Shown here: positions 5,911 through 31,621 of the stretch, one piece after another | How positions within the stretch are numbered: position 1 is the first letter of the stretch | How the letters are laid out: every line of letters begins with the position of its first letter | NCBI GenBank assembly: GCA_026988575.1 | Contig: JALSKZ010000076.1 | Location: 1 to 33,067, forward strand | Direction: 5' to 3' | Length of the DNA stretch: 33,067 bases | From: Thermodesulfobacteriales bacterium | GTDB taxonomy: Bacteria; Desulfobacterota; Thermodesulfobacteria; Thermodesulfobacteriales; Thermodesulfatatoraceae | Position numbers and translations under genes: made by a program | Notes under the pieces: generated by a model | Told to the model about the DNA's origin: nothing | Database searches by the model: none | Seen by the model: only the letters and a program-made list of their open reading frames with translations

Positions 5911-8853
5911 ATGGGTAAGATAAGAGTATATGATCTGGCCAAAGAAATGGGGGTAGCTCCTAAAGAGCTGGCAGACAGGATCAAACAAATGGGCTATAGC
6001 ATTCGAACGCATTCAAGTACTATCTCAGAAAGTGAGGCTAGGGAAATTCGTGTTCGTTTGGAAGCCGAAGGTTGGGGCAAGAAAGAAGGCCTTTCAGAAA
6101 ATAAAGAAGAGAAGAAGACAGTTTCGCAGCATACAGTAATTGTGCGTCGGTCTAAAGAAACTTCGCAAGAGAAAGAAGATACGCTGGAAGAAGAGAGAGA
6201 AGACATCCAGCCTACTCCAGAAGAAGCAACCCCCAAAGCAAAAGTTAAGCCAAAGATCAAACTAAAGTTAAAGATTAAAAAGCCTTTAAAAGGCAAAACA
6301 GAAAAAGAAACAAAGAAAGAGCCCCCGAAAGAAGAAATCAAAGAGGTTTCCTCTGCTAAAACCGTAGAAGAAGTAGCAGAAAAAGGCGAAAAGAAGGTTG
6401 TTGCTCCTTCCGTTCCTGAGATCAAGGCCAGGATTGTTGAGAAAAAGGTCCTTAAACCCAAAGAAGAACAAAAGGAGAAGGAGGTCCGAAAAGAAAAAGA
6501 AGCTCCTCCAGTAGAGGAAATTAAAGAGCCAGAAGCCCGGGCTGAAGAAAAGCCTCCCAAGGAGGCCAAGGTAGGAGTTGAAAAGGAACCTTCCCAAGAA
6601 GTCTCTGCCCCTTCGGAAAAGAAGGAGGCCAGGGTTACCAAGCCCTCTAGTGGGCCAAAGGTTGTAGCCCGTGCAGTGGGTATGGTCAAAACCCCTCTGC
6701 AAAGAGAAAGGGACAAAAAAGAAGGGGAATCCCGGATAAAGAAACACAAGAAAGAGCGGCGTGTAGTGACTGATTTTGCCAAGCGTTCCAAGCCTAAGGC
6801 CCCGGCTCCATCTCCCACCAGTATGGAAAAACCAGGAGACAAGAAGCCCAAACGGTCCCGTAAAAAACAAGTCGTGGAAATGGAAGATTTCCTTAAAAAG
6901 AAGGCCAAAAAGAAAGTTGGTCGCCCCAAGGCTGAACGGGAAGAGATTATGGAAGAGCTTGAGCTCATGAAAGAGCTGGAAAGTGTTGAGGGGATGGAGC
7001 TCCCAGAGGTTACGGAAGAGAAAAAGCCAGGGCCCAAAGGGGAAACGGAGAAGAAAGTTTCGGAAGAGCAGGAGCCAAAGGCCTCTACCTTGCCTCGTAG
7101 AGAGAAGAAGATAAAAGTTTACGAATCTATTCAGGTAGGCGAGTTGGCCAAGCTGATGGGGGTTAAGGCTTCAGATATTATCCGAAAGTTTATGGAAATG
7201 GGCACCATGGTAACCATCAACCAATCTATAGACCCCGATACAGCCGCGATTATAGCGGCAGAATTTGGTTTTGAAGTGGAACAAGCGCCTATAGAGGAAG
7301 AACAGCTACTGGAATACAAGCCCCCTGCTCCAGAGGAGCTAGAGCCTAGGTCTCCAGTAGTAACGGTTATGGGCCATGTAGACCATGGTAAGACTACCCT
7401 GTTAGACGCTGTTCGTCAGACCGATGTAGCCCTGAGAGAAGCCGGAGGGATTACCCAGCACATTGGTGCTTACAAGGTGCGTTTGGAAAACGGGCAAGAG
7501 ATCACTTTTATTGACACTCCTGGTCATGAAGCCTTTACTTCCATGCGTGCTCGTGGGGCCCAGGTTACCGATATAGTTATTCTGGTGGTAGCAGCAGACG
7601 ATGGCGTTATGGATCAGACCCGTGAAGCCATAGATCACGCCAAGGCTGCCGGGGTGCCGGTGGTGGTGGCTATTAACAAGATCGACAAACCCGATGCCAA
7701 TCCCGAGAGGGTCAAGACAGAGCTTGCCGAGCTGGGTTTGGTCCCTGAAGAATGGGGCGGAGAGACCCTTTATGTAGAGATTTCGGCCAAGAAAAAGATA
7801 GGCATTCGGGAGCTTCTGGATTTGGTTCTACTTCAGGCCGAAATGCTTGAGCTAAAGGCCGCTCCCAACCGTCCTGCGCGGGGGCGTATTATCGAGTCAC
7901 GTCTCGACAAGGGGCGCGGTCCGGTGGCCACTGTAATTATTCAGGAGGGCACCTTACACGAGGGGGATCCCTTTGTCGCAGGAGTTACCCATGGCCGGGT
8001 ACGGGCAATGCTCGATGAGCATGGGCGTCGCCTCAAGGAAGCGGGGCCTTCTACACCGGTTGAAATCCTTGGTTTTTCTGAGGTACCTCAGGCGGGAGAC
8101 GACTTTATCGTCATGCCCGATGAACAAAAAGCACGGAAAGTAGCAGAATACAGGGCGAGAAAACAGCGTGAGGCGGAGATGGCCCGGGAGGCCAAGATGT
8201 CCCTGGAACAACTCTTTGATAGGCTCCGCGAAGGAGAGATTAAAGAACTTAAGGTAATTCTTAAGGCCGATGTTCAGGGCACTTTAGAGGCCCTGGCCGA
8301 TTCTTTACGTAAACTAGCCACAGAAGAAGTAAGGGTAAATATTATCCGCACGGGTATAGGGGCGATCTCCGAAAGTGATGTAATGCTGGCCTCGGCCTCC
8401 AAGGCCATAATTATCGGCTTTAATGTTCGTCCTACACCCAAGGCCAAACAATTGGCTCAGCAAGAAAAGGTCGAGATCCGCTTCTATGACGTGATCTATA
8501 AGGTCATTGAAGATATTAAAAAGGCCATGAGCGGCCTTTTAGAACCGGAATACGAAGAAAAAATTATGGGGCTGGCGGAAGTACGGGCTACCTTTAAGGT
8601 ACCTAAGGTTGGTGTGGTGGCGGGTTGCTATGTCAAAGAAGGCCGGATTGAACGAGGAGCAAGGGTTCGTTTGCTTCGGGATAATGTGGTCGTCTATAAC
8701 GGGCGTATTTCCTCCCTTAAACGCTTTAAAGAGGATGTAAAAGAGGTACATGCCGGTTACGAGTGTGGTGTGGGGCTGGAAAACTTTAACGACATAAAGG
8801 TTGGAGACCACATCGAGGCCTACGAAATAATAGAGATCAAGCGCGAACTATAA
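5911..8853 (+). CDS. infB: Translation initiation factor IF-2
   Basis: A 980-residue GTPase that delivers initiator tRNA to the ribosome. An N-terminal IF2_N domain (about 1-52) is followed by a long Lys/Glu/Pro-rich low-complexity linker (about 60-400), a second IF2_N-like domain (about 405-460), and the G domain. The G-domain motifs are GHVDHGKT (G1, about 487-494), DTPGHE (G3, about 535) and NKID (G4, about 589). Domains II, III and the C-terminal fMet-tRNA-binding domain (ending near [10 protein letters not shown]) follow. Length is at the upper end of the family because of the linker. The ATG is 1 nt after the ylxR stop. The linker produces a long Ser/Phe-rich antisense reading frame that is not a gene. 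Confidence 0.97.
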
Positions 8854-8871
8854 TTGGTCCTCTGGGTGCTT

Positions 8872-9162
8872 ATGGTGGTAGGCATTATAAAGTTTAGCAT
8901 CCATATCCCTGAGACCAGGTCTCTTAAGGCCAAACGACAGGTTGTTCGCCGACTATTACAAAAAGCTAATGGTCGGTTTAAAAATATTGCTATATCTGAG
9001 GTTGGCAGCCACGACCTGTGGCAAAAGGCCGAAATAGGTGTATCAGCTGTGGGAGTAGACCACCAGGTCATCAACAGCTTGTTAGACCAGGTGCTAGACT
9101 ATTTTGAAGAGTTTGAAGATATCGAGATTATTCATGCCGATATGGAAATTTTTTCCCTGTGA
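8872..9162 (+). CDS. ylxP: YlxP-like protein (DUF503)
   Basis: A 96-residue protein with the DUF503 core IHIPETRSLKAKRQVVRRLL, SEVGSHDLWQKAEIGV and VDHQVINSLLDQVLDYFE. It lies between infB and rbfA, the conserved place for this family. Function is not established; neighbourhood points to ribosome assembly or translation. The frame is open from a TTG at 8854, immediately after the infB stop, but family members start with the equivalent of MVVGIIKF, so I chose ATG 8872. No strong Shine-Dalgarno is seen at either, which suggests translational coupling to infB. Confidence 0.85.
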   Translation: MVVGIIKFSIHIPETRSLKAKRQVVRRLLQKANGRFKNIAISEVGSHDLWQKAEIGVSAVGVDHQVINSLLDQVLDYFEEFEDIEIIHADMEIFSL

Positions 9163-15164: not shown

Positions 15165-15842
15165 CTACTGTTTAATCCTTTTTCGAGCCAAGAAAAGCCC
15201 TGCCAGAGCACTTCCTACCAGAAGCATAGAAGTGGGCTCAGGAACAGTGGTAGCTACCTGTCGTATACCAAAACTGCCGTACCCTTGACCGCCAAGGTTC
15301 TGATCTATTTTAGCCAAATCTATTTTTAACACGAAGGTCTCGGTACTGTTGCTTTGTTGCCAACCAGGGGCCCAAAACTCCAAAACTTTTCCGTCGAAAC
15401 GGTCATTCTGAAAGACAGTACTCGAATACTCAACCAAGGGGAATTTATCATAACGATTCTGAAAATCCTTGTCCCAGAACTCAAAATGGTAGTCGGACCA
15501 ATCGTAAGGAGTAGTGTTTTTAATCATAAAGTCTAGCTCCCAAGTAGGGTTGTTTAGGTCATTGCTGTCGAAGGTGAAGACCTTGTCAAAATACTTACCG
15601 TCTTTGTTTACAATTGCGTACCCGTCGTGTGAGGGATAAGGGACCCGGTAGGTCTCGTTGTAGTCTTCTAAAAGAACCGCTTTCCCAGATGTAATAGCTA
15701 AACCAGTAATCTCGTTCAAGTCATTGGGATAGACATCTGTTACGGTTAAGGCCCTTACTGATACCACCGAAAGGACGATCAAAAACCATAAAGCCAAGCC
15801 TAAAACCAACCATTTCCTTTGTGTTTGTGTTTCGTTTTGCAT
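15165..15842 (-). CDS. Secreted PEP-CTERM sorting-domain protein of unknown function
   Basis: A 225-residue exported protein. The N-terminus has a charged stretch and a hydrophobic signal segment (about 10-31: WLVLGLALWFLIVLSVVSV). The C-terminus has the complete PEP-CTERM tripartite signal: VPEP, a membrane segment (MLLVGSALAGLFLA) and a basic tail (RKRIKQ). PEP-CTERM proteins are cleaved and sorted by an exosortase, usually in organisms making exopolysaccharide. No exosortase gene is in this window. The region between is rich in Trp, Tyr, Asp and Asn, with a likely beta-sandwich character, but I do not recognise a domain. The ATG follows AAAGGAGG at a good distance. It has its own terminator and is probably monocistronic. 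Confidence 0.88.
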   Translation of the reverse strand: MQNETQTQRKWLVLGLALWFLIVLSVVSVRALTVTDVYPNDLNEITGLAITSGKAVLLEDYNETYRVPYPSHDGYAIVNKDGKYFDKVFTFDSNDLNNPTWELDFMIKNTTPYDWSDYHFEFWDKDFQNRYDKFPLVEYSSTVFQNDRFDGKVLEFWAPGWQQSNSTETFVLKIDLAKIDQNLGGQGYGSFGIRQVATTVPEPTSMLLVGSALAGLFLARKRIKQ

Positions 15843-23592: not shown

Positions 23593-24055
23593 ATGAGCAA
23601 CTGTATCTTCTATAAGAATCCGGGAAGATGGCCAGGTCAAGAATAAGGCCATTTATGTGGTAGTAGGGCTAGATCTTGAGGGCTACAAGGAAATCTTGGG
23701 TTTTTGGGTAAACGGTACGGAATCGAGCCGATTTTGGCTTGGGTATTAAACGACCTCAAGGCCCAAGGGGTAAAAGACGTCTTCATTTTCAGCATAGATG
23801 GGCTATCTGGACTTGAAAAGGCGATAGAGTAGAAATAAGGCGGGTTATGTACACGACAAATATCATAGAGAGCTTAAATAGCAAATTTCGTAAGGCGACA
23901 GGGGGAAGGAGGGTCTTTCCCACAGACGAGGCCCTGCTAAAATGCATGTATATGGCGGCTCTAGATCTGGAGAAAAATGGACTCGGCCGATGAAAGATTG
24001 GCCATCGGTCTATAGCCAGATAGCCATTTTATTCATTGAGGATAGGCTGGGATGA
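23593..24055 (+). pseudogene. Broken IS256-family (mutator) transposase
   Basis: Homology pieces in order: REDGQVKNKAIYVVVGLDLE and YKEILGFWVNGTESSRFW (from about 23612); after a frameshift near 23743, NDLKAQGVKDVFIFSIDGLS; after an internal deletion near 23830-23845, YTTNIIESLNSKFRKATGGR and RVFPTDEALLKCMYMAALDL; after another frameshift in an A-run near 23973, KWTRPMKDWPSVYSQIAI and FIEDRLG, then the stop. The start ATG 23593 with AAGGAGG upstream remains, fused by a further deletion to the middle of the gene. The N-terminal DNA-binding part, the first catalytic Asp and the region before the catalytic Glu are lost, so it is inactive. Confidence 0.85.
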
Positions 24056-26233: not shown

Positions 26234-27784
26234 ATGATATACAAGATAGGTAGCTTAAAACTCACTCCAGAGCAGTACAAGGCCGCGACCAATCCTGGCC
26301 ACACGTTAGTTGTAGCTGGCCCAGGGACAGGAAAGACCCGTACCCTACTTGCCAGGGCCTTATATCTATTGGAGCAGGACATACCCCCTGAGAAGATCAT
26401 CATCCTCACCTTTACCGTAAAAACGGCCCAAGAACTTAGGCAACGCCTTCAAGAGTTAGGAGCGCAAGCGCGGGTAGATACCTTCCATGCCTTGGCCTAC
26501 GACCTTTGCCGCAGCCAAGGACTAAAAATAAAACTCCTGGAAGAGCGAGAAAAGACAGCACTTTTGGCCCAAATTCTCAAATATTTAGGCCAAAATCCCC
26601 GTCAGGCCTCAAAAATAGCAGAAAGGGTCTCTTTTTCCCCCCCACTTGAAGGGACCCAAAAAATCTACTCCCTTTATCGAGACACCTTAAAGAGTGAAGG
26701 CCTATGGGATTACGAACGTCTCCTAGAAGAAGGAAAAAATCACCCTTTAACGCAGCAGGATCTGCACTTACTCATAGACGAGTTTCAAGACCTAAACCGG
26801 GGCCTGATACAATTTTTGGTCTCCTTCCCCAAAGCCACTTATTTTTTGGTGGGGGATCCGGCCCAGGCCATATATGGGTTTAGGGGAGGAGACCCTTACC
26901 TGGTGCGCACCTTCATCGCTCCCCTCCCGGGGATAAAAATATTTTCTCTTTCAGAGAGTTTTCGCCTACCAGAGGAGGTCTTAAAGAGGTCAGAGACCTT
27001 ACGCCAGCGTCTTTATGGAGAAAGGCCTCTCTTTACCAAAATAAAAGGCGGTAAGGTAGCAGGATTTGCGTGTGCCCATAAAGACGCCGAGGCCCAAAAG
27101 ATAGTAGAGCTTGTAGAAGAAAAACTCGGTACTTTTCAGATGGAGCGAGCCCGAGGGGATACACAGAGTCCATCGGACCTAGCAGTCTTGTTTCGGGTGA
27201 GGGCCCTCATGACCCCGGTGGCGGAAAAACTGCAGCAGAGAGGAATTCCCCTAAAGATTCCCGGCCAAAAAGTCTCTTCGCTTGCCGAACACCTTACCCA
27301 ATGGGCCAAAGGACTAAAGACTATTCCCACGGAAGGATCCCTAGCGCAGGAATTAGCGGTTTTCCCCGCTTCTCTGCGCAACCTAATTAAAGGCATAGTC
27401 CAGTCTTGTACAGACTTAGAACATCTGCAATTTACTCTTTCCCTAATAAACGATTTAGATTTACTAGACCTCACCCACGATGCTGTCTCTTTACTCACCA
27501 TCCACGAAGCCAAAGGGCTTGAATTCCCCGTGGTTATTTTAGCCGGTGCCGAAGAAGGTCTATTACCCTTTAATCTTATGCCCGAGGTCAACGAAGACGA
27601 AGAAAAACGACTGGCCTATGTGGGCATTACCCGGGCAAGCAAGGCCTTTTATTTCACCTGGGCACAGAAACGTTTTGTCTATGGCCAAAAACTTCCGGGA
27701 GAGATAAGCCGTTTTTTCAAGTCCTTTCCCCAAAAACCCCTTGTCCCTAAAAAACCCAGAAAACGACAGATGTCTCTGTTTTAG
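26234..27784 (+). CDS. Compact UvrD/Rep-like superfamily 1 helicase
   Basis: 516 residues, short for UvrD/Rep (about 650-750). Motif I is VVAGPGTGKT (about residues 28-37), motif Ia ILTFTVKTAQEL, motif II LLIDEFQD, motif III VGDPAQAIYGFRGG, motif IV-like LSESFRL, motif V LLTIHEAKGLEFPVVILAGA and motif VI LAYVGITRASKAFYF. All helicase motifs are present, so it should be an active 3'-to-5' ATPase/helicase. The 1B and 2B insertions are reduced. It ends in a basic tail (KKPRKRQMSLF) whose last residues resemble a beta-clamp-binding motif. ATG 26234; no strong Shine-Dalgarno. Role in repair or replication is by family only. Confidence 0.88.
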   Translation: MIYKIGSLKLTPEQYKAATNPGHTLVVAGPGTGKTRTLLARALYLLEQDIPPEKIIILTFTVKTAQELRQRLQELGAQARVDTFHALAYDLCRSQGLKIKLLEEREKTALLAQILKYLGQNPRQASKIAERVSFSPPLEGTQKIYSLYRDTLKSEGLWDYERLLEEGKNHPLTQQDLHLLIDEFQDLNRGLIQFLVSFPKATYFLVGDPAQAIYGFRGGDPYLVRTFIAPLPGIKIFSLSESFRLPEEVLKRSETLRQRLYGERPLFTKIKGGKVAGFACAHKDAEAQKIVELVEEKLGTFQMERARGDTQSPSDLAVLFRVRALMTPVAEKLQQRGIPLKIPGQKVSSLAEHLTQWAKGLKTIPTEGSLAQELAVFPASLRNLIKGIVQSCTDLEHLQFTLSLINDLDLLDLTHDAVSLLTIHEAKGLEFPVVILAGAEEGLLPFNLMPEVNEDEEKRLAYVGITRASKAFYFTWAQKRFVYGQKLPGEISRFFKSFPQKPLVPKKPRKRQMSLF

Positions 27785-28046
27785 TTGTATCTTTAAGTTA
27801 CAGTCGTATACTAAAAGATACACTTTGACAGAACAAACTATAATGCTGTTTTTTAGCCTTACGTGTAGTATAAAGATTACAAAAGAAGCCCTCTAAAGGC
27901 TTAAGATTTGGTTAAAAGCGCTTCCCACAAACCTATAGACCTCCTAAGACTTAACGGAAACAGGCATCACCCCATATTGGCACGCCTTATGCATTCATTT
28001 AAAAGACAAAAAGATTAAGGAAACTCTCGAGGAGGAAATAAGATGA
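27785..28046. other. Intergenic region with inverted repeats before tRNA-Cys
   Basis: It holds TGTATCTTT (27786-27794) with its complement AAAGATACA (27814-27822), a weak AAGCC/GGCTT hairpin at about 27889-27905, and a sigma54-type promoter. No terminator with a proper T-run follows the helicase gene. Confidence 0.5.
27977..27993 (+). promoter_or_regulatory. Sigma54-type promoter upstream of tRNA-Cys
   Basis: TTGGCACGCCTTATGCA has the -24 GG (27979-27980) and -12 GC (27991-27992) exactly 10 nt apart, and seven matches at the -24 element (TGGCACG). Transcription would start near 28004. AGGAGG (28030-28035) and ATG 28043 follow at ideal spacing, though the ATG leads into a tRNA gene. Confidence 0.65.
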
Positions 28047-28122
28047 GGCGGCGTAGCCAAGTGGTCAAGGCGACGGTCTGCAAAACCGTTATCCCCAGGT
28101 TCAAATCCTGGCGCCGCCTCCA
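28047..28122 (+). tRNA. tRNA-Cys (anticodon GCA)
   Basis: Acceptor GGCGGCG pairs with CGCCGCC; the anticodon stem ACGGT/ACCGT closes loop CTGCAAA with anticodon GCA; the T arm is CCAGG-TTCAAAT-CCTGG; discriminator T and encoded CCA (28120-28122). It begins 4 nt after a Shine-Dalgarno-preceded ATG and ends 13 nt before the DUF2156 gene. Confidence 0.96.
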
Positions 28123-28135
28123 TATGGTAGGAGCC

Positions 28136-29071
28136 ATGAATATACCTCAATTTCCCCAATTTAAGGACCTAAGCTTGGAAGATAAGAAACTATTAGTACC
28201 TTTATTTCACGAAATGAAACCGGAAATTTCTGATTGTAACTTTACCAACCTGTTTATGTGGCAAGATTTCTATCAAATAAAAATTACTCGTCATCGAGAA
28301 AATATATGTTTATTTGCCTCTGCCGATAATACACCTGAGAGACAATTCTTTTTTGCTCCTCTTGGTCATCATGAAATAAAAGAAACTATTGCTGACCTTT
28401 TTGAGTTTCTACAAGACAACAACTGTCAACCTATTATCAGACGTGTCTCTGAACAGTTTATTAAGCAACACGCTTCAGAATTGTCTTGCTTTAAAGTAGT
28501 ACAAGATCCTGACATCTCCGATTATATTTATAGAACAGAAGATCTGATACAATTAAAAGGTCGAAGATATCACGGACAACGCAATTTTATATCGCGTTTT
28601 AAAAAGAAATATTCTTACACCATAGAAGAGATTACCTCAGAAAATGCACCCGAATGTATAGAATTTTGCCGTCAATGGTTAGCCAAAAAGATTGAGCGTT
28701 TTCAAGAGTTAAATATGCCCCCAGAGGCTTACGTGTTTTTAAAGGCTGAGGTTGCGGCTACTAATAAGGTACTAAAACACTGGTCTGTATTGGACGTACG
28801 GGGCATGCTTATCCGAATTGACGGCAAAATTGCTGGCCTTAGTATAGGCGAACTCCTAAACCCAGAAATTGCTGTTATACATGTAGAAAAATGTGACCAC
28901 ACCTATTTAGGCATCAGCCAATTTATTTGTCAGGAGTTTTGTAAACGTTTTTGGGCCTTTTGTAAATACATTAACCGGATGGAAGACCTAGGCCTAGAAA
29001 CTCTACGTAAAGCCAAGATGGCCCTAGGTCCCCATCACATGGGACTCAAGTACAACATTATGCCGCTATGA
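28136..29071 (+). CDS. DUF2156 protein (MprF C-terminal-domain-like acyltransferase)
   Basis: About 311 residues. It resembles the DUF2156 family, related to the soluble C-terminal domain of phosphatidylglycerol lysyltransferase MprF, a double-GNAT fold that uses aminoacyl-tRNA. Typical stretches are SDCNFTNLFMWQDFYQIKI at the N-terminus, GRRYHGQRNFISRFKKKY in the middle, and YINRMEDLGLETLRKAKMAL at the C-terminus. There is no membrane domain. The frame is open up to ATG 28043 through the tRNA gene; I chose ATG 28136 because AGGAG is just before it and the 31-residue extension would be encoded by tRNA. Its stop overlaps the dapF start (ATGA). Substrate unknown; next genes make lysine. Confidence 0.85.
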   Translation: MNIPQFPQFKDLSLEDKKLLVPLFHEMKPEISDCNFTNLFMWQDFYQIKITRHRENICLFASADNTPERQFFFAPLGHHEIKETIADLFEFLQDNNCQPIIRRVSEQFIKQHASELSCFKVVQDPDISDYIYRTEDLIQLKGRRYHGQRNFISRFKKKYSYTIEEITSENAPECIEFCRQWLAKKIERFQELNMPPEAYVFLKAEVAATNKVLKHWSVLDVRGMLIRIDGKIAGLSIGELLNPEIAVIHVEKCDHTYLGISQFICQEFCKRFWAFCKYINRMEDLGLETLRKAKMALGPHHMGLKYNIMPL

Positions 29072-30330
29072 CCAAAAGAGATCTTTTACCCTTTACCAAG
29101 TATAGTGCCCTGGGCAACAATTTTTGCCTAATCGACGAGACCGAAGGACTTATAATCCCTGAGGAACTAAAGCCATTTTTTGCTCAGGAATATGCTAACA
29201 CTCAATATGGCATAGGGTGTGACAGTATACTTTTTATACAAACTCCCGGGGTAGACACCTTCAGCGAACTGGAAAAACGTTTTGGTAAGATATGGCAAGG
29301 GCAAGGGATTTATAACCAAATGAGGGCCCTTATTGCGGAAAATACCGGCCAGGCCCAAACCATTATGCGCATCTTTGAGCCCTGTGGACAAGAATCTGCC
29401 ATGTGTGGCAACGGCATCCGCTGCCTGGCAGACTACCTGTGCCGCAAATGGGGCCTTGAAGAAGTTTCTATCTTGGCCGAGATTACCACGGCACACCCTC
29501 GCTTGTATAAAGTCAAAAAAGTAAGTCCCGAGGGATATTATGCCCTCAAACTGGAAGAACCAGGTCCTCTTCCCTCTCAGTTTAAAGGCCCCCGTTACGA
29601 TCTCTATGCCAAGCCCTTGGGAAGTTTTGCCCATGTACTAGACTTACAGATAGATAAATCGATATTGGGGGTATGGGCAGCTAAGAGGCTACGGGCCTTT
29701 ACGATATATACCGGAGAACCCCATTTAGTATGCTTTACCGCTTCCTTAGAAAAAATACGCCAAAAATTAGACCTACCGCGACATCAATTTACAGATTTCT
29801 TTAAGCGTTCAGAACAATACCGTACCGGTATACTACAGGCCTTGGGTCACTATTTAAACGATCGTGATCCTTTAAGCCCCTATCTAGGTCTAGTAAATCA
29901 GTCTGAAGGGATAAACGTGAACATTGCTGAGGTAGATCCAGAAAACCGCCTCATCTATATGCGTGTTTACGAAAGAGGAATATGGCGCAAAACTTTGGCC
30001 TGCGGCACCGGGGCCATTGCGGTAGCGTCTCTAGCCCTTATGCTGGGCTTGGTCGAAGGGCACCAGGTCAAGGTATTGCCTGAGGGATCCTTTTATCAAA
30101 ATTCTGGCTCTGAGCTTACGCCGGCCTTTGTGCGTCATTGTGGCCATTTAGAGGTCCTGCACCAGGGACAAAATTGGTTTCTAATCGGCCCTGTAGAAGA
30201 AATTTATCGTGGACATATCCCTTACTGGAAAGAAAAGTTAAACAACAGGAGACTACAGAGCAAAATCTATGCTAACCCTAAAAAAGCCTCTAAAACCCAT
30301 AGTGATTTACAAAAACGCCTGGCTGCTTGA
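29068..30330 (+). CDS. dapF: Diaminopimelate epimerase, long divergent form
   Basis: 420 residues against about 275 for the family. Both catalytic cysteines are in place: C113 in AMCGNGIRC and C312 in ACGTGAIA. The N-terminal substrate loop reads SALGNNF (usual GLGNDF). Extra sequence lies at about residues 60-98, 225-280 and after 385. The usual ERGxGET-x-ACGTGA stretch reads ERGIWRKTLACGTGA, one residue longer, with the GE pair replaced. It converts LL- to meso-diaminopimelate for lysine and cell wall. It overlaps lysA by 62 bp and the DUF2156 gene by 4 bp, so the three are one operon. Function is very likely; specificity is worth testing. Confidence 0.88.
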   Translation: MTKRDLLPFTKYSALGNNFCLIDETEGLIIPEELKPFFAQEYANTQYGIGCDSILFIQTPGVDTFSELEKRFGKIWQGQGIYNQMRALIAENTGQAQTIMRIFEPCGQESAMCGNGIRCLADYLCRKWGLEEVSILAEITTAHPRLYKVKKVSPEGYYALKLEEPGPLPSQFKGPRYDLYAKPLGSFAHVLDLQIDKSILGVWAAKRLRAFTIYTGEPHLVCFTASLEKIRQKLDLPRHQFTDFFKRSEQYRTGILQALGHYLNDRDPLSPYLGLVNQSEGINVNIAEVDPENRLIYMRVYERGIWRKTLACGTGAIAVASLALMLGLVEGHQVKVLPEGSFYQNSGSELTPAFVRHCGHLEVLHQGQNWFLIGPVEEIYRGHIPYWKEKLNNRRLQSKIYANPKKASKTHSDLQKRLAA

Positions 30331-31621
30331 GGCCCCTGCCCTTCAACTACTGGCCGAAGAGTTTGGGACCCCCCTTTTTGTTTTTTGGGAAGAAAGGCTC
30401 TGGCAAAATGTAGCCGAGTTAAAAGAAGGTCTTGGTCTCTTGGAGAGTAATTTCCGCCTATTTTATGCCTGTAAGGCCAATGCCAACCTTTCTATTTTAC
30501 GCACGCTGCTAGAAGCCGGACTGGATTTGGAAGTAAACAGCGTGGGCGAATTATGGAAGGGCCTTAAGGCTGGCTATAAACCCCAACAAATTATTTTTAA
30601 CGGTGTAGGCAAGAGCGAAAGGGAATTAAAAGAGGCCATTTTACAGGGTATACACTGTATAAATGTAGATTCTCTGTCTGAATTGATGGACATCGTCCAT
30701 ATTGCCTCGCGATACCGCAAGGATGTACCTATTGCCTTGCGTTTAGTACCGGAGATAAAAGACGGCGGTCTTGAAGGCCTGGAAACAGGGCATAGTCAAA
30801 CCAAATTTGGTCTTCCCCCCTCGCAACTACCGGAAATTTGTAAAGTGCTCAAAGACCACCCCTACGTACACCTTAGCGGACTACATACCCATGTGGGATC
30901 CCAGCTGAGCAACCCTGTTTCTTACCGCCTGGCCTTAGAACGCCTCCTTGGCCTGCGTAAAGAACTGGAAAAGGCCCTAAAAACGGAGATAAAACACCTA
31001 AACCTCGGCGGCGGCCTACCTGTGGAATATAGACACGAGGCCTACCCCCAAAAGGCCCCCTGTCCGGGTCCAGATAAGAGTTTTGCCCAGAGTTTTGGTC
31101 CTAAAGAAATGGCCCTCGTCTTAAAAGATGTGGTACCTCAGGATATTGTCCTTTATTTTGAGCCAGGAAGACGCCTCGTAGGCAATACCGCCTTTTTATT
31201 AACTAGGGTAGTACGGAAAAAGACCATCTCTGCCCGTACAGCCCCGTGGTTAATATTAGATGCGGGTTTTAATGTCCTGCTAGAGGCCCTTTCTTACCGG
31301 TGGTATTTTCACCTGATCGCGGCCGAAAGGCCCCAGGCCCCACACAACACCGGCTATTTTGTGGCCGGACCCCTTTGTGATGGGGGAGACATATTCCCTA
31401 TACCCCACACAAACTGCCCCTTTTACCACCGCTTGCTCCCGGAAAACGTCGAAGAAGGAGAACTTCTGGCCTTTTTAGACACGGGGGCCTATACTCTGGA
31501 ACAGATGACCTATTATAACGGACGCTTACCCGCGGCCGCGGTACTCATTGATCGAAAAGGTCAAATAAGACTGATCCGCAAACGGGAAACAAGCCAGGCC
31601 CTTTGGGCTAATGACTTATAA
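30269..31621 (+). CDS. lysA: Diaminopimelate decarboxylase
   Basis: A 450-residue PLP enzyme that decarboxylates meso-diaminopimelate to lysine. The PLP lysine is in FYACKANANLSIL; other motifs are HTHVGSQL, LNLGGGLPVEY, FEPGRRLVGNT and GPLCDGGDIF (the usual CESxD variant), with TYYNGR at the C-terminus. The ATG 30269 lies inside dapF, giving a 62-bp overlap; GTG 30302 would reduce this to about 29 bp. A carboxynorspermidine decarboxylase relative is less likely because the neighbour is dapF. It converges on rsmG with 11 bp between stops. Confidence 0.92.
   Translation: MLTLKKPLKPIVIYKNAWLLEAPALQLLAEEFGTPLFVFWEERLWQNVAELKEGLGLLESNFRLFYACKANANLSILRTLLEAGLDLEVNSVGELWKGLKAGYKPQQIIFNGVGKSERELKEAILQGIHCINVDSLSELMDIVHIASRYRKDVPIALRLVPEIKDGGLEGLETGHSQTKFGLPPSQLPEICKVLKDHPYVHLSGLHTHVGSQLSNPVSYRLALERLLGLRKELEKALKTEIKHLNLGGGLPVEYRHEAYPQKAPCPGPDKSFAQSFGPKEMALVLKDVVPQDIVLYFEPGRRLVGNTAFLLTRVVRKKTISARTAPWLILDAGFNVLLEALSYRWYFHLIAAERPQAPHNTGYFVAGPLCDGGDIFPIPHTNCPFYHRLLPENVEEGELLAFLDTGAYTLEQMTYYNGRLPAAAVLIDRKGQIRLIRKRETSQALWANDL

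Follow-up and report, generated by a model that had tools for sequence, protein, structure and literature searches.

The window analysed here is the whole 33,067-bp stretch, which makes up bases 1–33,067 of contig C76; the genome, G000, comprises 2.0 Mb in 88 contigs. Within the window, a sigma54 site, a tRNA-Cys gene and genes for a DUF2156 protein, a DapF-family protein (DapF2) and a LysA-family protein (LysA2) followed one another on one strand, the protein genes overlapping. A genome of another family, G057, served for comparison. The features, with coordinates in the window, were as follows.

27786–27802, minus strand: putative activator-binding site 1, TGTAACTTAAAGATACA, an inverted repeat TGTA-N8-11-TACA.
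27805–27823, plus strand: a weaker, half-conserved copy of the motif, CGTATACTAAAAGATACAC, of which AAAAGATACAC was common with the G057 site and the rest was assigned by eye.
27864–27881, plus strand: putative activator-binding site 2, TGTAGTATAAAGATTACA, identical at 14/15 positions to G057 GTGTAGTAAAAAGAT.
27977–27993, plus strand: sigma54 (−24/−12) promoter, TTGGCACGCCTTATGCA, with the same type of site in G057.
28030–28045, plus strand: AGGAGG-N7-ATG, located just before the tRNA gene; the G057 leader lacks it, and it is probably without function.
28047–28122, plus strand: second tRNA-Cys(GCA) gene, CCA encoded, U73 (ARAGORN; Rfam RF00005, 71.7 bits).
28136–29071, plus strand: DUF2156/LPG_synthase_C protein of 311 aa, a probable aminoacyl-tRNA-dependent transferase.
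29068–30330, plus strand: divergent DapF-family paralogue of 420 aa (PF01678; TIGR00652 just above its cut-off).
30269–31621, plus strand: divergent LysA-family (fold III PLP) decarboxylase paralogue (TIGR01048, 315 bits).

The tRNA-Cys gene was identified by both ARAGORN and Rfam, and the cloverleaf, GCA anticodon, U73 and CCA were all present. The housekeeping tRNA-Cys gene of G000, 88% identical to the operon copy, was located on contig C15 beside tRNA-Met, as in the rest of the family, and G057 likewise had a separate tRNA-Cys gene outside its operon. The operon copy was fully canonical and carried no mark of exclusion from translation, a form compatible with a role there.

tRNA genes are normally sigma70-driven and belong to translation. 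The sigma54 element that an earlier note on this DNA had placed upstream of the tRNA-Cys gene was real: GG (27979–27980) and GC (27991–27992) were separated by 10 nt, and the element matched 12 of the 13 positions of YTGGCACGN4TTGCW, the top score in the window. It was also the sole match in the window to TTGGCACN6TGCA with at most one mismatch (shuffled sequences averaged 0.41). The distance from the element to the tRNA start was 53 nt, and from the geometry of the site transcription would be expected to start near 28004. The counter-case raised in the note was an unrelated sigma70 start for the tRNA; no sigma70-like promoter was found at 27700–28200. RpoN was encoded on contig C81 of the same genome (PF04552, 205 bits).

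Elsewhere in the window, a PEP-CTERM protein was encoded at 15165–15842 (minus strand), with a weaker GG-N10-GC site (10/13) ~115 bp upstream of it. A remnant of the C-terminus of a Mutator-family (PF00872) transposase lay at 23847–23993, in a gene-poor stretch beside tmRNA.

Only two inverted repeats of the form TGTA-N8-11-TACA occurred in the 33 kb, and both were upstream of the sigma54 site; at least two repeats in this 192-bp region were reached by 1 of 5000 shuffles. Site 1 was the only exact match in G000 to TGTAN4AAAGATACA, a motif derived from these sites. In the 172 kb examined there were just ten TGTA-N8-10-TACA repeats, six of them in three pairs, located in the window, in G057 and behind a response regulator gene on contig C38 of G000 and spaced 78, 83 and 74 bp apart, respectively. 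Shuffles of the three regions reached two repeats in 1, 2 and 0 of 5000. Because the repeat motif had been chosen after the first two of these regions were seen, the pair on C38 tests it more fairly.

The C38 response regulator was 57–58% identical to a regulator of G057 that adjoined the operon there (next best regulator of G000, 46%). Both belonged to a shared four-gene module of a CHASE2-HD-GYP protein, a FecR-like protein, a kinase and the regulator, the CHASE2 and FecR names being presumptive ones given by eye. On C38 (L231) the perfect repeats TGTATTATTTTTAATACA and TGTAGTATTTTTACTACA were found behind the regulator gene, in a segment (8740–8909) running to the contig end, and a sigma54 target probably follows them past that end. 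A 12/13 sigma54 site (2425–2441) was also seen before the first gene of the module. Assignment of the C38 and G057 regulators to the PEP-CTERM response regulator PrsR was rejected, their TIGR02915 scores being 391–398 bits against a cut-off of 502.6.

In G057, a histidine kinase gene and a sigma54-type response regulator gene were followed by TTGGCACAGTTAGTGCA, tRNA-Cys, an AdoMet_dc-family gene and DUF2156. The TGC of the sigma54 site was 22 nt from the tRNA, compared with 54 nt in G000. When 395 genomes of the phylum were searched for a sigma54 site at most ~70 nt before a tRNA-Cys start, only G000 and G057 matched, and the reversed pattern used as a control gave 0 matches. DUF2156 homologues were present in 175 of the 395 genomes, the one in G057 being the best (53% identical; others ≤41%), and the G000 and G057 proteins were each other's closest relatives in a 100/100 clade. 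The two instances may descend from one event. No DUF2156 homologue was found in nine genomes of the family or 31 of the order, and thus the tRNA-DUF2156 block was probably acquired. No tRNA-Cys gene lay within 1.5 kb of 32 other DUF2156 loci of the phylum. In a broad collection of genome contigs, a scan with the window DUF2156 protein found no relative, and the sigma54-tRNA-Cys pattern gave, among the matches listed, chance matches only, with no tRNA; a scan of viral contigs found none, and plasmid DUF2156 proteins were 25–29% identical at most.

The next-closest DUF2156 genes (~40% identical) were those of family f10. Most of them were also preceded by an NtrC-type gene and a sigma54-like site, and the intervening DNA held small ORFs but no tRNA, so that in this enzyme group sigma54 control reaches further than the association with a tRNA. 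The arrangement in f10 (L005, L011–L014, L016 and L022), a related sigma54 operon, was an NtrC-type gene, sigma54-like TTGGTAYRAAAWTTGCT, a small ORF, a lone receiver-domain ORF and DUF2156, the elements not all being present in every genome. With the promoter found also in a distant relative, putative paired upstream sites, a response regulator as candidate activator and RpoN, the claim of sigma54 control over the tRNA-DUF2156 block was supported, and regulation of the operon by sigma54 and a two-component system is well supported at the level of sequence.

The DUF2156 protein matched PF09924 (LPG_synthase_C) with 148 bits against a gathering score of 27.5 (E 3.4e-43), and homology to the family began at the residues encoded from 28136. 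An AlphaFold2 model from this start was complete and had high confidence throughout (pLDDT 95). In Foldseek the model, a tandem-GNAT fold, matched 2hqy, the MprF catalytic domain, streptothricin Sbb17/Sba18 and FemX, with E values down to 2e-11 for MprF and 5e-8 for FemX. The N-terminal membrane flippase domain of MprF was not found, the 311 residues being covered by the catalytic domain alone. Members of the GNAT-fold aminoacyl-tRNA-dependent class take an amino acid from a charged tRNA and pass it to an acceptor (PMC12945691), and by its predicted fold the DUF2156 protein is probably such a transferase. Because the operon also contains a tRNA-Cys gene, Cys is the suggested donor and would be the residue transferred.

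The start of the DapF-family gene overlapped the DUF2156 stop (ATGA). Its 420-aa product kept both Cys motifs, AMCGNG and LACGTG. A separate short dapF of ordinary length, common to the family, was located on C36, and other LysA-family genes were located on C63 (544 bits, likely the housekeeping LysA) and C53. Thus, the window DapF and LysA copies are extra and divergent, and their identification as the housekeeping lysine genes was rejected. In the window LysA-family protein CDGGD stood in place of the CETGD of the housekeeping LysA, and the substrate of the window protein may differ. A decarboxylase-family gene was present in both operons, of LysA type in G000 and of AdoMetDC type in G057, which hints at an amine as the acceptor. 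Ornithine and arginine decarboxylases occur among the relatives of AdoMetDC (PMC10407285). The AdoMetDC-family protein of G057 (L004, 1085–1489) scored 37.8 bits with TIGR03330 (cut-off 75.65 bits) and is possibly a decarboxylase of another substrate.

The reading that we favour, and consider somewhat probable, is a sigma54 operon (tRNA-Cys, DUF2156, DapF2 and LysA2) switched by a two-component system and carrying its own tRNA-Cys to feed a Cys-transferring enzyme. The response regulator, with its orthologue on C38, would bind the paired sites ~110–190 bp upstream and activate sigma54 RNA polymerase. After cleavage by RNase P and processing at the tRNA 3′ end, a single transcript from near 28004 would give an additional tRNA-Cys together with an mRNA whose translation begins at 28136. 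The ordinary CysRS would charge the additional tRNA-Cys, which would be the Cys donor for DUF2156 or would replace tRNA drained from translation. DUF2156 would move Cys to an acceptor, perhaps an amine, that the epimerase and decarboxylase of the operon make or modify. Several observations speak against this reading: there are two instances only; the f10 enzymes lack a tRNA, so the enzyme group needs none in its operon; the tRNA is canonical; and the genes that lie between or follow are not the same, being AdoMetDC in G057 and DapF with LysA in G000. In a fuller version, which we regard as possible rather than probable, the locus would be the first pathway with its own tRNA gene switched by sigma54 and a two-component system, tRNA-Cys made on demand supplying a Cys-tRNA-dependent transferase that, helped by the epimerase and decarboxylase, forms a Cys conjugate (e.g. 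a thiol amine).

It is unlikely that the sigma54-driven tRNA-Cys just raises the supply for translation of Cys-rich proteins on induction, with DUF2156 and the other genes sharing the promoter without using Cys-tRNA. The canonical tRNA would suit such a supply, as would the f10 DUF2156 genes that are under sigma54/NtrC control without a tRNA; however, two distant lineages have kept the tRNA beside DUF2156 genes of this subgroup despite changes in spacing and in the intervening gene, and the predicted fold of DUF2156 is that of enzymes consuming aminoacyl-tRNAs.

Quite improbable is a tRNA acting mainly as a processing signal, in which RNase P and 3′ cleavage would shorten the transcript and define where the downstream mRNA begins. 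Just 13 nt, with GGAG among them, separate the CCA end of the tRNA from the DUF2156 ATG, and the acceptor stem and arms stay paired in the predicted RNA fold, both in keeping with this role. In G057, however, the tRNA is followed by 60 nt and a different gene, and any tRNA would serve as such a signal, yet both loci have tRNA-Cys.

The leader bears on two further explanations, both offered in the earlier note. AGGAGG (28030–28035) with ATG 7 nt on (28043–28045) was present as described there, and the frame of this ATG was indeed open through the tRNA and joined DUF2156 in frame (ORF 28043–29071, 342 aa). AGGAGG-N5-9-ATG was found at five places in the window, shuffled sequences giving 1.53, so the motif alone is weak evidence. 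In the G057 locus, a comparison with relatives being what the note had proposed, the sigma54 promoter was present, but the leader had no Shine-Dalgarno before the tRNA and its ATG frame ended just past the tRNA. The promoter-tRNA distance differs as well, so this ribosome-binding site is not conserved between the loci, and AGGAGG-N7-ATG is probably without function. That the tRNA-DUF2156 block landed behind the start codon of a sigma54-driven gene whose body was lost, leaving AGGAGG and ATG as relics, would account for the ideal placing of the motif and agrees with the probable acquisition of the block, but is very improbable, since in G057 the sigma54 site runs directly into tRNA-Cys without that ribosome-binding site and with matching upstream sites, so that promoter, tRNA and enzyme appear to belong together there too. 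Dual use of the transcript as tRNA and mRNA, with translation from 28043 through the tRNA giving an N-extended DUF2156 that includes MRRRSQVVKATVCKTVIPRFKSWRR, is scarcely credible: the 31-codon open frame would allow it, but 31 random codons would stay open by an estimated chance of ~1 in 4, homologues have no extension, another gene intervenes before DUF2156 in G057 after the leader frame has stopped, and translation through the tRNA would be expected to be blocked by its stable fold and by the RNase P cut.

If the favoured reading, an operon with its own switched tRNA-Cys for a Cys-transferring enzyme, is true, specialised pathways can come with a tRNA supply of their own, placed under strictly activator-dependent sigma54 control, the neighbouring tRNA allows a prediction of which amino acid a DUF2156 enzyme uses as donor, and the locus points to an undescribed cysteine-containing metabolite. 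In the open-licence literature on DUF2156 with a tRNA and on sigma54 with tRNA-Cys, no report of this arrangement was found, and the review PMC12945691 had no mention of "tRNA gene".

Several known systems resemble the locus in part. MprF (LPG_synthase_C) has the same Pfam family and fold as the window protein, which lacks the membrane flippase half. Lys or Ala tRNA is the substrate of the known MprF enzymes. PEARLs such as TglB add Cys from Cys-tRNA (PMC12945691) and would share with the window the use of this donor in specialised metabolism, but they are LanB-like and ATP-using, act on a peptide acceptor and have an unrelated fold. The RtcR-controlled sigma54 RNA-repair operon encodes YrlA, an RNA with a tRNA-like domain, plus protein genes (PMC7790460). 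Like the window, it joins a tRNA-like RNA and protein genes in a sigma54 operon, but it has another activator and RtcA/RtcB genes, and its Y RNA is not a chargeable tRNA. As for the PEP-CTERM/PrsK-PrsR sigma54 systems (PMC9850573), C38 holds a weak TIGR03016 neighbour, and the regulators score well with TIGR02915 but stay below the cut-off, as given above. VlmA, DhpH-C, DhpK, PacB and BD-12 Orf11 (PMC12945691) and Sbb17/Sba18 (PDB 9wqx, 9wqy) match the window DUF2156 in fold. These natural-product GNAT-fold transferases are, like DUF2156, stand-alone soluble enzymes in small operons with other enzymes, but here a tRNA gene heads the operon, with Cys as the putative donor.
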